From the NCBI GenBank assembly GCA_964019415.1, contig OZ025868.1:1808501-1872500 (forward strand): a stretch of DNA of 64,000 nt. The letters are read 5' to 3'. Both the position numbers and the translations under genes were made by a program. This document shows positions 18,401 to 36,400 of the stretch, piece after piece (positions within the stretch are counted from its first letter, which is position 1; the number at the start of each line of letters is the position of its first letter). The notes beneath the pieces were generated by a model, which ran no database searches, had not been told where the DNA came from, and saw nothing but the letters and a program-made list of their open reading frames with translations. This DNA is from Ianthella basta. Taxonomy: Eukaryota; Porifera; Demospongiae; Verongiida; Ianthellidae.

Positions 18401-21400
18401 CACATGTTCAGATCGCACGTTTGAATAGCAAGTGATTAACAATAATTACTGCTTGCATGCATGCTTGTGTGCACACAAATGGCTCACGAGAATAGCGTGT
18501 ATTACTTGTAAGTACCACTGTAATTATAATTTTTTAGGCAGGCGGGCAGCCTCTATATTGTTTTCGTTTTGACATTTTGTTGTATGGCTTCATGTTACGC
18601 TTCTGGTGGTATATATATATGTATGTTTGCATGTATGTATGTAAGTATACATAGAGGGACTGCGTCTCATTCTCCACCACCATCCCATACTTCATCCACA
18701 CATAACTGACATTACTGTCAGAGGAGCCCAAGAAGGAGCAGTTGAAGGTGACAGTGTCAGTGGGAAATGGAGTGGGGCTGTCCGCAGAAAGGTTGACCAC
18801 TACAAGACAAATCAATCAATCAATCAATCAATGGTCATGAAGGATACATTTCTCCAGTTTCTGGAGGTCATCCCTAAAAAACAAGCTGTCTTAAGGCAAC
18901 ATATATCTGAACATTACATACCAGTACATAAATCACTTAAAATTGTCACTCCATCTCATCCTTGGTCTACCTCTCAGCCTTCTTCCTTCCATCTCTCCTA
19001 CATACACCTTCTTTGTCACTCTGTCACTGTTTATCTCATTCAATTTGCCCTTCCAATTTTCCTGCCTTCTCCTTATCACATCTAATACACTTTCCTGCCC
19101 AAGATGCTGTCTAATATGTTCACTCCTTATTCTCTCCATTCTACTTACTCCTTGTACTCTTTTTAAAACATTCTTTTGCATTGCCTGCACTTTCGACTGC
19201 TGCTGCTTTGTCAAGCTCCATGCCTCATACCCATACAACAAAGATGGCATCATTGTGGCATCGACTACTTTCAACTTTGTGTCCTTACTTAACTCTCTCC
19301 TCCTCAATACTGCCTCACTCATTCCTCCAATCATTCTCGTAGCACTCCCAATTCTTGCCTCCATTTCCTTCTGCATCCTACCATCACTACTTAACATTTC
19401 ATTTCATCTACCTGCTCAATAGCCTGGTAACCAACTCTTACTTCACAGTCATCTCTCTCCCTTGCTACCTTCATCACTTTTGTCTTCCTCCAATTTACCT
19501 TCAAGTCCCATCTAACCATTGCCTCACTCAGTACCTGCAATTTGCTTTGCAGCCCCTCTTCTGACTCTGCCATCAACACGATGTCATCTGCATAGAGTAG
19601 CACTCCCACCTCACCTGTAGACAGCTTCACCTCTCTCACAAACTCTCCTCTTGCTTCCCTTGTCACCTTATCCACAAATACATTGAACAACTAGCATGGC
19701 TAGCATACATATAACGTATCAACAAACAGCTCATGGGAAAAGAAATACATGCACATACGAATCGTCTGTTACAGCTCGCAAGTGTACAATGTGTAGGATG
19801 TCTGCAAAATTACATTACCAACTTAGCCTCACAGGGTTAGTATCTGTTGCTGCCAACAGATGTAGGCTACTGTTAGTGCATACTACAGCCAGCATACCAG
19901 TATTTCATCACTTCATCTCATGTCGCACCAAACACAACCTACTCTTCACTCACAGTTGATTGTAATGGATCTGTTGGTTGTCCCAGCTTCTGACGTCACC
20001 TCACATATGTAGTCTCCTGCGTCCTCAGCTGTCACATTATCAATAAGGATGACAGGCCCCAGCATTGGTCCAGTGGGTGTGGTCCATATGAAATTGAGGG
20101 TGGGTCCTCCTGCTGCCTTACATGTCAAATTCAGGGACATCCCCTGGGAGACCACAGTGGATGGGGTAGCTGTAAGGTTCTGAATTTCTGGAACAACTGT
20201 TATAGGAGACATGAGGAGTGGGATGGAGTGAGGGAGAAGTGTTATGAAAAAGAGAGGAGAGTGAGGAGGAGGAGAAGGTGAGGGGAGGTGAGACTGCTTC
20301 ATCAACACTCACAATGTTGTGTCACACAAACACACAAGGGTACAAGGGAGAGATTCTCTATATTGCCCTCATCTGTCCACCCACATGTACACACCTGTAA
20401 ACAAGATCAATTGAGATGTGATGTTACGTCCATCCACCACCACACGGCAGAAGGCAACACCCGGGGAGAACACCTGGATGACCTCTGGTACATCGTTTAC
20501 AACTGGTCGCTCTATCTCTAGTCCCTGAAGGAGCTCACCGTCGGCAGTTAACTGAACAGAGCTGAATGCATTAAAGAGCTCAAACCGTGGACCACCGAGG
20601 AATGAGCAAGTGCCATTGATTAAGTCACCCATCTGCAGTAGGAGAGCTGGAAGCTGCAGCTGCTGAAAGGTGAGGTTGATTGAGGGGGTGGGGTCAGTCA
20701 CAAAGGAGAGGCGAGGCTGTTGCACTGGGAGAGGAATTGATGAAGTACATATTCTGAATACACATCCATACAAATGTCTACACATGTAATACATACCATT
20801 AAGAGTGAGTGCGTCAGATACAATTCCATCTGCAATACAAAACACCATAGTCCTGTTGTCATCAAACGTGACGTCAAGGGAGAAAAGGGACTGAGTCTCA
20901 TTCTCCACCACCATCCCATCCATCATCCACACATAACTGATATTACTGGCAGAAGAGCCCAAGAAGGAGCAGTTGAATGTGACAGTGTCAGTGGGAAATG
21001 GAGTAGGGTTGTCCACAGAAAGGTTGACCACTACAAGACAAAGTGTGCTAGTAAGGTCATTGGTAAGGAAATACGCATCTACAGTAACCTAGCAACACAT
21101 AGCTGGTGAAGTTAATACAAACTAGAAATAATAAAAATTTTCTACAAAAATAGCAAGGATGTAGGGATGGCACAAAAAGTACAGAAACAAGTAAAGGCTG
21201 TTACACAGTGGAGCATCAACCATGGTCCCTACATGCAAGAACGTTGCACCTTATAGTCCTACACCCTTGAATGTAGGGACGATGGTTGATGCTCCACTGT
21301 GTAACAGTCTTTACTTGTTTCTGTACTTTTTGTGCCATCCCTACATCTTTGCTATTTTTGTAGAAAATTTTTATTATTTCTAGTTTCTGTACTTTTTATG

Positions 21401-33400: not shown

Positions 33401-36400
33401 TTCTGAATTTCTGGAACAACTGTTATAGGAGACATGAGGTGTGGGATGGAGTGAGGAAGAAGTGTTATGAAAAGGTGAGGCTTGAGAGTGAGGAGGAGAA
33501 GGAGGTGAGAAGTCAGACTGCTTCATCTCAACACTAACAATGTTGTGTCAGACATACACACAGGGGTACAACGGAGAGATTCTCTATATTGCCCTCATCT
33601 GTCGACCCACATGTACACACCTGTAAACAAGATCATTTGAGATGTGATGTTACGTCCATCCATCACCACACGACAGAAGGCAACACCCGAGGAGAACACC
33701 TGGATCACCTCTGGTACACCGTTTACAACTGGTCGCTCTATCTCTAGTCCCTGCAGGAGCTCACCATTGGCAGCTAACTGAACAGAGCTGAATGCAATAT
33801 GGAGCTCAAACCGTGGACCACCGAGGAATGAGCAAGTGCCATTGACTAAGTCACCCATCTGCAGTAGGAGAGCTGGAAGCTGCAGCTGCTGAAAGGTGAG
33901 GTTGATTGAGGGGGTGGGGTCAGTCACAAAGGAGAGGCGGGGCTGTTGCACTGGGAGAGGAATTGATGAAGTACATATTCTGAATACACATCCATAGAAA
34001 TGTCTACACATGTAATACATACCATTAAGAGTGAGTGCGTCAGATACAATTCCATCTGCAATACAAAACACCATGGTCCTGTTGTCATCAAACGTGACGT
34101 CAAGGGAGAAAAGGGACTGAGTCTCATTCTCCACAACCATCCCATCCATCATCCACACATAACTGACATTACTGGCAGAAGAGCCCAAGAAGGAGCAGTT
34201 GAAGGTGACAGTGTCAGTGGGAAATGGAGTAGGGTTGTCCACAGAAAGGTTGACCACTACAAGACGAAGTGTGCTAGTAAGGTCATTGGTAAGGAAATAC
34301 GCATCTACAGTAACCTAGCAACACATAGCTTGTGAAGTTAATACAAATACGAGGGTGTACAAATGTACAGAGTGGTGCTTGTCTACTATTATGGCAGTGG
34401 ATGGGGTAGCTGTATGGTTCTGAATTTCTGGAACAACTGTTATAGGAGACATGAGGAGTGGGATGGAGTGAGGGAGAAGTGTTATGAAAAGATGAGGCTT
34501 GAGAGTGAGGAGGAGAAGGAGGTGAGGAGAAGTGAGACTGCTTCATCAACACTCACAATGTTGTGTCAGACAAACACACAAGGGTACAATGGAGAGATTC
34601 TCTATATTGCCCTTGTCTGTCGACCCACATGTACACACCTGCAAACAGGATCATTTGAGATGTGATGTTACGTCCATCCACCACCACACGGCAGAAGGCA
34701 ACACCCGGGGAGAACACCTGGATCACCTCTGATACACCGTTTACAACTGGTCGCTCTATCTCTAGTCCCTGCAGGAGCTCACCGTCGGCAGCTAACTGAA
34801 CAGATCTGAATGCATTAAAGAGCTCAAACTGTGGACCACCGAGGAATGAGCAAGTGCCATTGACTAAGTCACCCATCTGCAGTAGGAGAGCTGGAAGCTG
34901 CAGCTGCTGGAAGGTGAGGTTGATTGAGGGGGTGGGGTCAGTCACAAAGGAGAGGCGGGGCTGTTGCACTGGAAGAGGAATTGATGAAGTACATATTCTG
35001 AATACACATCCATACAAATGTGTACACATGGAATACATACCATTAAGAGTGAGCACATCGGATATAATTCCATCTGCAATGCAAAATACCATGGTCCTGT
35101 TGTCATCAAATGTGACGTCAAGGGAGAAGAGGGACTGCGTCTCATTCTCCACCACCATCCCATCCATCATCCACACATAACTGACATTACTGGCAGAGGA
35201 GCCCAAGAAGGAGCAGTTGAAGGTGACAGTGTCAGTGGGAAATGGAGTAGGGTTGTCCACAGAAAGGTTGACCACTACAAGACGAAGTGTGCTAGTAAGG
35301 TCATTGGTAAGGAAATACGCATGTACAGTAACATAGCAACACATAGCTTGTGAAGTTAATACAAATACGAGGGTGTACAAATGTACAGAGTGGTGCTTGT
35401 CTACTATTATGGCAGTGGATGGGATAGCTGTATGGTTCTGAATTTCTGGAAGAACTGTTATAGGAGACATGAGGAGTGGGATGGAGTGAGGGAGAAGTGT
35501 TATGAAAAGGAGTGGAGAGTGAAAAGGAGAAGGAGGTGAGGAGAAGTGAGACTGCTTCATCAACACTCACAATGTTGTGTCAGACAAACACACAGGGGTA
35601 CAAGGGAGAGATTCTCTATATTGCCCTCATCTGTCGACCCACATGTACACACCTGTAAACAAGATCATTTGAGATGTGATGTTACGTCCATCCACCACCA
35701 CACGGCAGAAGGCAACACCCGGGGAGAACACCTGGATGACCTCTGGTACACCGTTTACAACTGGTCGCTCTATCTCTAGTCCCAGCAGGAGCTCACCGTC
35801 GGCAGTTAACTGAACAGAGCTGAATGCATTAAAGAGCTCAAACCGTGGACCACCGAGGAATGAGCAAGTGCCATTGACTAAGTCACCCATCCGCAGTAGG
35901 AGAGCTGGAAGCTGCAGCTGCTGGAAGGTGAGGTTGATTGAGGGGGTGGGGTCAGTCACAAAGGAGAGGCGGGACTGTTGCACTGGGAGAGGAATTGATG
36001 AAGTGCATATTCTGAATACACATCAATAGAAATGTCTACACATGTAATACGTACCATTTAGAGTGAGTGCGTCAGATACAATTCCATCTGCAATACAAAA
36101 CACCATGGTCCTGTTGTCATCAAACGTGACGTCAAGGGAGAAAAGGGACTGAGTCTCATTCTCCACCACCATCCCATCCATCATCCACACATAACTGACA
36201 TTACTGGCAGAGAAGCCCAAGAAGGAGCAGTTGAATGTGACAGTGTCAGTGGGAAATGGAGTAGGGTTGTCCACAGAAAGGTTGACCACTACAAGACAAA
36301 GTGTGCTAGTAAGGTCATTGGTAAGGAAATACGCATCTACAGTAACCTAGCAACACATAGCTTGTGAAGTTAATACAAATACGAGGGTGTACAAATGTAC

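Follow-up and report, generated by a model that had tools for sequence, protein, structure and literature searches.

Human LPA contains two-exon kringle units (160 + 182 nt), from 1 to more than 40 in tandem, and these give rise to length isoforms (PMC4378929, PMC7613587). In chelicerates, sDscam-alpha has at least 40 tandem two-exon immunoglobulin (Ig) cassettes, and sDscam-beta has four-exon cassettes that encode two Ig domains (PMC4835542). The CEACAM genes contain several A- and B-type Ig exons and encode paired receptors with opposite signals (PMC2832619, PMC2110893), and the allorecognition complex of Hydractinia and Podocoryna is a set of clustered genes (PMC13119343). For sponges, it is known in general that Ig, FN3, and SRCR domains occur in combination and that there are adhesion G protein-coupled receptors (GPCRs) carrying Ig and FN3 domains (PMC4772301, PMC4302439). 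Among the papers listed by the literature searches, none concerned the sponge receptor family described below or such an array in sponges. Little is known of how sponges distinguish self from non-self at the molecular level. Here, we describe a gene of the demosponge Ianthella basta in which a two-exon, putatively Ig-encoding cassette is repeated 15 times downstream of one signal-peptide exon and upstream of one set of stalk, transmembrane, and tail exons. On balance, we consider it probable that this is a functional chimeric multi-Ig receptor gene, in which all of the cassettes are normally spliced in, and in which the number of cassettes varies.

The window, which is the whole 64,000-nt stretch that was analyzed, is C1:1808501-1872500, where C1 is contig OZ025868.1 of an assembly of 209 Mb in 96 contigs. 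The mitochondrial COX1 of the assembly, on contig 96, has nine in-frame TGA codons and was translated with code 4; its best match, at 90% identity, is a cluster named Demospongiae, in agreement with a demosponge host. On the minus strand, from 36288 to 20395, there are 15 exons of 234 nt (a) and 15 exons of 330 nt (b) (Table 1). All 30 are free of stops, are in phase 1-1, and have AG/GT borders, as an earlier sequence-only reading had stated, and we confirmed them to the base. Of the 15 units, 14 have an a-b intron of 72 nt. Thirteen of the 14 b-a introns measure 375-385 nt, and the one ahead of unit 15 measures 1,415 nt. The period of the array is ~1,017 nt. On C1, exons a and b are confined to the array gene, 15 of each together with one truncated a, and a second copy of the array was not found in the assembly, in which one haplotype was searched. 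The 15 cassettes are all distinct, at the DNA and the protein level alike. Compared over the 180 nt upstream, exon a, the a-b intron, and exon b, any two cassettes differ by at least 1.2%, and usually by 3-5%, although the values for unit 15 are too high owing to an insertion in its upstream stretch. The longest exact repeat inside the array is 308 nt. For a dependence of unit similarity on separation, we obtained P = 0.08, and we make no claim for it.

When the signal exon, the 30 array exons, and exons c, d, f1, f2a, f2b, f3, f4, transmembrane, and tail are joined, the product has 3,530 residues, with no internal stops and 133 potential N-glycosylation sites, so the receptor of ~3,530 residues that had been predicted for full inclusion stands. 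Within C1:1.38-1.86 Mb, a search with the tail exon gave 27 matches at 72-100% identity, one of them being the exon itself, and the total is at least 80 when the weaker ones elsewhere are included. Four of these tails are in the window, and their five tyrosines, including two NPAY motifs, are identical in all four. The stretch from the upstream tail to the signal exon resembles its counterpart in the adjacent cluster gene (65% over 656 nt), and therefore the upstream region, like the 3′ half of the gene, belongs to the clustered family.

What do exons a and b encode? Exon a matches the Pfam family Ig_2 below threshold (E = 7e-4, 20.3 bits vs a cut-off of 27), and a Pfam scan of exon b up to an E of 10 gave no matches. 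In all 15 units, Cys-21, Trp-35, and Cys-65 of a, and Cys-40 and Cys-93 of b, which are 53 residues apart, are invariant. A structure model of b consists of strands only, with a low mean pLDDT of 47.8, and a search of solved structures with b gave two chance-level matches (E of 0.38 and 1.6). Of the 30 added Ig-like domains of the sequence-only reading, those of exon a are thus fairly supported, and for those of exon b we infer an Ig-like fold. A protein search with a version of the receptor that contains one cassette, in which only 7,992 candidates were scored, returned 22 distant Ig/FN3-type proteins, the best-scoring being a sidekick protein with 26% identity over 25% of the query; Dscam2, with 24% identity over 36% of the query, shows generic domain similarity. 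A search with exon b, restricted to proteins of 60-192 aa so that array-type frames of 239 aa are hidden, gave 16 clusters of exon-sized proteins, of which one is the window's own and 15 others have 60-87% identity to the first query. In a comparison by eye, record P0157 is equal to the C6 copy (described below) across its b part, and P0143 is near the first C19 copy; some of these public records may derive from the same animal or from one very close to it. Record P0153 (87 aa, on a contig of 595,518 bases) shares 67-72 of 79 residues with the array b exons and is equal to none of them, and it may represent the other haplotype or a sister species. Among viral contigs, there were 33 pattern matches, none of which was confirmed, and no match was found in phages.

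Relatives of the cassette occur on two other contigs, and there the cassette is a-b-c, in which c is an intact Ig exon. At C19:394-406 kb, there are five tandem a-b-c sets, all open, and the gene continues with Ig, FN3, apparent transmembrane, and Y_phosphatase exons (C19:414673-416807), which identify it as a receptor tyrosine phosphatase gene. The window gene differs from it in having a short tail exon, and among the PF00102 matches listed, none is in the window. On C6, there are a-b-c sets at 986k and 1027k, 41 kb apart and with identical b exons, which suggest either a recent duplication or a haplotype duplication in the assembly. The stretch behind the 986k copy, which was the one scanned, contains clear GPS and 7tm_2 matches and a weak HRM match below the cut-off, and these domains mark an adhesion-GPCR-like locus. 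At C19:3762k, another Ig receptor locus, a VWA exon is followed by a-b-c, and then by Ig, FN3, transmembrane, and tyrosine-bearing tail exons, the last four recognized by eye. As a separate observation, the genome has at least 175 protein-tyrosine-phosphatase matches at E ≤ 0.001 (150 of 689 candidates scored), and among the matches listed, most are on C6 (~4.2-7.6 Mb) and C12 (~4.4-6.1 Mb), which points to a large expansion of these phosphatases.

The C1 array contains traces of the same a-b-c order. The last b is followed by an intact c, a c-a intron similar to the one on C19 (74% over 290 nt), a fragment of a reverse transcriptase, and finally a truncated a. The C1 block thus has the look of a fragment of an a-b-c-a-type array that was set into a gene of the clustered family. 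In addition, upstream of each a, there is a relic of 180 nt, in which the first ~42 nt of c are fused to the c-a intron. This delta-c junction is present on C1 in 15 copies, 14 whole and one, at cassette 15, split by an insertion, and it was not found elsewhere in the assembly (22 matches in all). Because the junction is the same in all 15 copies, c was truncated once, before the amplification. Thus, the idea that a and b were maintained in frame while a vestigial exon c decayed has no support from the relics, and an argument for selection on that basis was rejected. In a comparison of 13 units, the nucleotide diversity (pi) of the 180-nt relic is 0.0185, vs 0.067 in the remainder of the intron (Fisher P = 2e-5), a contrast that is inflated by a low-complexity tract in the rest of the intron; third-position pi in the same units is 0.095 for a and 0.041 for b. 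The conservation of the relic, unusual for noncoding DNA, may reflect a splicing element or homogenization.

The ratio of nonsynonymous to synonymous substitution (dN/dS) within the array is 0.16 (0.07-0.32) for a and 0.54 (0.28-1.06) for b. The bootstrap intervals in parentheses, here and below, are rough, since the pairs share history, and gene conversion adds uncertainty. Between C1 and C19, the values are 0.32 (0.16-0.56) for a and 0.45 (0.26-0.81) for b, and between C1 and C6, they are 0.23 (0.08-0.52) and 0.46 (0.24-0.91). Within the C19 gene, b has a value of 0.50 (0.27-0.96). The comparisons of a used C19 units 2-5 of 5, since the a exon of unit 1 has a deviating first codon, and none of the comparisons included the duplicate C6 locus. 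These values argue clearly for purifying selection on a in the array, and more weakly for purifying selection on b. Selection on the cassettes, as claimed in the sequence-only reading, therefore holds for a and is less clear for b, although for a different reason from the one that was given. The variable residues 51-55 of b, five in a row, gave P = 0.066 for clustering, and we make no claim for them.

We propose that a block of Ig exons derived from an a-b-c array came to lie in a gene with the clustered-family tail. Following the single truncation of c, a delta-c-a-b unit was multiplied to 15 in-frame copies, presumably by unequal crossing-over. Every cassette would be included constitutively, because the splice sites and short introns are nearly alike in all of the units, and no unit is singled out. 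The resulting ectodomain, with 30 array domains, two Ig domains, and an FN3 stalk, would be very long and heavily glycosylated, and it would hold a large number of almost identical binding sites well away from the membrane, with signaling through the tyrosines of the tail. By analogy with human LPA KIV-2, the number of cassettes may vary between haplotypes, so that the length of the ectodomain perhaps differs between individuals. The sharing of the module with the phosphatase receptor suggests a common ligand, read by receptors with different, and perhaps opposing, outputs.

Several observations weigh against this proposal, and some of them speak for a recent, largely neutral tandem expansion, in which the array is partly skipped or unexpressed and the frames survive as the units are young. 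The exons have diverged about as much as the introns (3.7-4.8%), and two introns carry insertions. By chance, just 1.9 stops would be expected, with a probability of 0.14 of having none, so the open frames are weak evidence, and we rejected the lack of stops by itself as an argument for selection. The interval for b within the array fails to reject neutrality. Furthermore, within the C19 gene, a (0.47, 0.22-1.15) and c (0.74, 0.36-1.8) are compatible with neutrality, and dN/dS for c between C1 and C19 is 0.55 (0.26-1.34). However, neutrality does not readily account for the low dN/dS of a within the array, for cysteines that are invariant in every unit, or for a module that is open in all five C19 copies and on C6. 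None of the 30 exons has changed in length, whereas the introns are variable in length, mostly by indels in the low-complexity tract. We consider a neutral expansion to be rather unlikely. The remaining points against our proposal concern the limits of the genes. The signal exon is 3 kb from the first a and is most closely related to the exon that begins an SRCR-array gene on C16 (81% aa identity, and 83.5% in DNA over 200 nt), so the 5′ end of the model is provisional. Likewise, one gene per locus on C19 and C6 is deduced from the order and strand of the exons, and the exons at C19:3762k are interrupted by a 1,000-codon frame of another kind. An assembly artefact, in which one or two units were falsely multiplied, is hardly credible and was rejected. 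False copies would be identical, whereas the cassettes differ pairwise throughout and share no exact repeat beyond the length given above; the 1-kb insertion upstream of unit 15 is private to it, and an assembly with so few contigs suggests long reads.

A different possibility is a Dscam- or sDscam-like repertoire, in which one or a few cassettes are included in each transcript by mutually exclusive splicing or by choice of promoter. With phase 1-1 throughout, any subset of whole cassettes would be in frame between the constant exons, sDscam is a precedent for multi-exon Ig cassettes in tandem (PMC4835542), and the conservation of the noncoding 180 nt ahead of a is what would be expected of a selector element, although its contrast with the rest of the intron is inflated, as noted above. 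We tried docking regions in the signal-a1, b15-c, and c-d introns. The best duplex with the signal-a1 intron had -47.4 kcal/mol, which none of 40 shuffles of the intron equaled; when one side or the other was shuffled locally, it was equaled in 0 of 500 and 1 of 500 trials. The corresponding trials gave 4 of 200 shuffles for the b15-c intron and 18 of 60 for the c-d intron. In Dscam1-type splicing, the docking site pairs specifically with the selector ahead of each variant. However, the GTGG-rich site pairs more strongly with many other stretches, such as ones elsewhere in the same pre-mRNA (-71.5), and with unrelated sequence on the plus strand (-55.6) or upstream on the minus strand (-53.5), and the consensus has no unusual fold. 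This pairing beats shuffles but is unspecific, and it was rejected as a docking/selector pair. In units 2 and 6, the frame is open farther upstream of a and contains an ATG. In the other 13 of the 15 units, however, an ATG is missing from the stretch that separates exon a from the last stop, which argues against an sDscam-like choice of promoter, and there is a single common signal exon upstream. Finally, the units are ~4% apart, so the choice of one of them changes little. Selective inclusion of this kind, which the sequence-only reading had raised, is therefore improbable.

A more far-reaching version of our proposal is that the gene encodes an individual-specific recognition receptor. The array would then be hypervariable between individuals, or its cassettes would be chosen cell by cell, within an allorecognition-type cluster and with a module shared with phosphatase and adhesion-GPCR-like receptors. 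We regard this as a speculative and unlikely extension. If it were true, the C1, phosphatase, and adhesion-GPCR-like receptors would make up a paired-receptor system of self/non-self recognition at the base of the animals. Apart from this extension, the constitutively spliced multi-Ig receptor that we favor would be a concrete candidate for recognition that is length-coded or paired in animals other than vertebrates, and the locus would be a clean case of exon shuffling in phase 1 with later amplification inside the gene. The demosponge also has a large clustered family of receptors with a conserved tyrosine tail, in one member of which a two-domain module has been multiplied fifteenfold.

Table 1. 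Features of the array gene and of the sequences within it (window positions).
Feature	Positions	Strand	Basis or detail
Signal-peptide exon, 82 nt, ends in phase 1	39342..39423	-	Translation and splice site
Intron signal-a1, 3,053 nt, inferred	36289..39341	-	Exon borders
Delta-c relic, example ahead of cassette 1	36289..36468	-	Sequence search
Cassette 1	35653..36288	-	a 36288-36055, b 35982-35653
Cassette 2	34639..35274	-	a 35274-35041, b 34968-34639
Cassette 3	33621..34256	-	a 34256-34023, b 33950-33621
Cassette 4	32604..33239	-	a 33239-33006, b 32933-32604
Cassette 5	31583..32218	-	a 32218-31985, b 31912-31583
Cassette 6	30566..31201	-	a 31201-30968, b 30895-30566
Cassette 7	29546..30181	-	a 30181-29948, b 29875-29546
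Cassette 8	28532..29167	-	a 29167-28934, b 28861-28532
Cassette 9	27518..28153	-	a 28153-27920, b 27847-27518
Cassette 10	26505..27140	-	a 27140-26907, b 26834-26505
Cassette 11	25494..26129	-	a 26129-25896, b 25823-25494
Cassette 12	24477..25116	-	a 25116-24883, b 24806-24477; a-b intron 76 nt
Cassette 13	23463..24098	-	a 24098-23865, b 23792-23463
Cassette 14	22446..23081	-	a 23081-22848, b 22775-22446
Palindromic transposon-like insertion, ~1.04 kb	21110..22150 (approximate)		Splits the c relic ahead of cassette 15
Cassette 15	20395..21030	-	a 21030-20797, b 20724-20395
Intact exon c, Ig_3/I-set, after cassette 15	19954..20196	-	Pfam, splice sites
Reverse-transcriptase fragment in c-d intron, non-LTR-like by eye	18936..19690	-	RVT_1 E=1.6e-12 for the 19690-19394 piece, the part covered by the Pfam scan
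Truncated exon a copy (codons 1-50), 3′ edge of acquired block	18651..18800	-	Sequence match
Exon d, Ig domain	17997..18260	-	Pfam, splice sites; paralogues in two neighboring window genes
Exon f1, FN3	17617..17910	-	Pfam fn3 E=7e-12
Exon f2a, putatively FN3-like	17292..17395	-	Gene model
Exon f2b, phase 0 junction to f2a	17074..17227	-	Gene model
Exon f3, putatively FN3-like	16686..16973	-	Gene model, paralogues
Exon f4, putatively FN3-like	16279..16593	-	Gene model, paralogues
Transmembrane exon	15924..16049	-	Judged by hydrophobic stretch
Cytoplasmic tail exon, five tyrosines including two NPAY	15418..15680	-	Gene model

The neighboring genes of the window are ~4-5 kb each, with a few Ig and FN3 exons. 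By eye, their membrane-distal Ig-like exons (43706-44400, 48721-49868, and 14000-14715) are very unlike one another, and those of their FN3, transmembrane, and tail exons that were found are 60-96% alike, a pattern of variable tip and constant stalk. In the gene with its tail at 11154, the search gave no match to exon d. The end motif of the transposon-like insertion of Table 1 also matches window positions 168-212 (80%), and a stretch related to the insertion, at 39178-39258, matches positions 136-216 (93%); the insertion and these stretches are probably one transposon family. At C16:1826506-1851000, at least 17 SRCR-like frames, recognized by eye, lie in tandem after the same signal exon and make up another intragenic array of domain exons.

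How does the array gene compare with the systems known? The SRCR-exon array gene on C16 has a signal exon and an intragenic tandem array in common with it, with SRCR-like domains, as judged by eye, in place of Ig. Tandem two-exon Ig cassettes are already described in sDscam, and the statement in the sequence-only reading that no described system has this layout was too strong, in view of the available accounts of sDscam-alpha (PMC4835542) and LPA (PMC4378929). Like the C1 gene, sDscam has a tandem series of multi-exon Ig cassettes at its 5′ end. However, a promoter is present ahead of each sDscam cassette, and the transcripts have no upstream exon in common (PMC4835542), whereas the C1 gene has one signal exon, and most of its cassettes have no ATG of their own. 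LPA KIV-2 is similar in that a multi-exon, frame-preserving unit that encodes extracellular domain sequence is repeated in tandem in one gene, which is also what is seen in the C1 array. On the other hand, LPA encodes kringles, with one domain per two exons, and is secreted, and variation in copy number is proven in LPA, whereas the C1 array is known from one haplotype. A cluster of duplicated Ig-receptor genes, as found on C1, is shared with the cnidarian Alr/ARC families, and Hydractinia and Podocoryna, which are colonial and early-branching animals, resemble the sponge in having clustered, duplicated genes for allorecognition-type receptors. This likeness lies in gene clustering, and the available part of the account describes no tandem two-Ig array there (PMC13119343). 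The CEACAM genes resemble the C1 gene in having A- and B-type Ig exons in one receptor gene, and in the use of similar ectodomains on opposing cytoplasmic signals. CEACAM5 has three A-B pairs. The CEACAM genes are vertebrate genes with few units in each, whereas the sponge gene has 15 units, and the outputs of the sponge receptors would be a phosphatase, a GPCR, and an NPxY tail.

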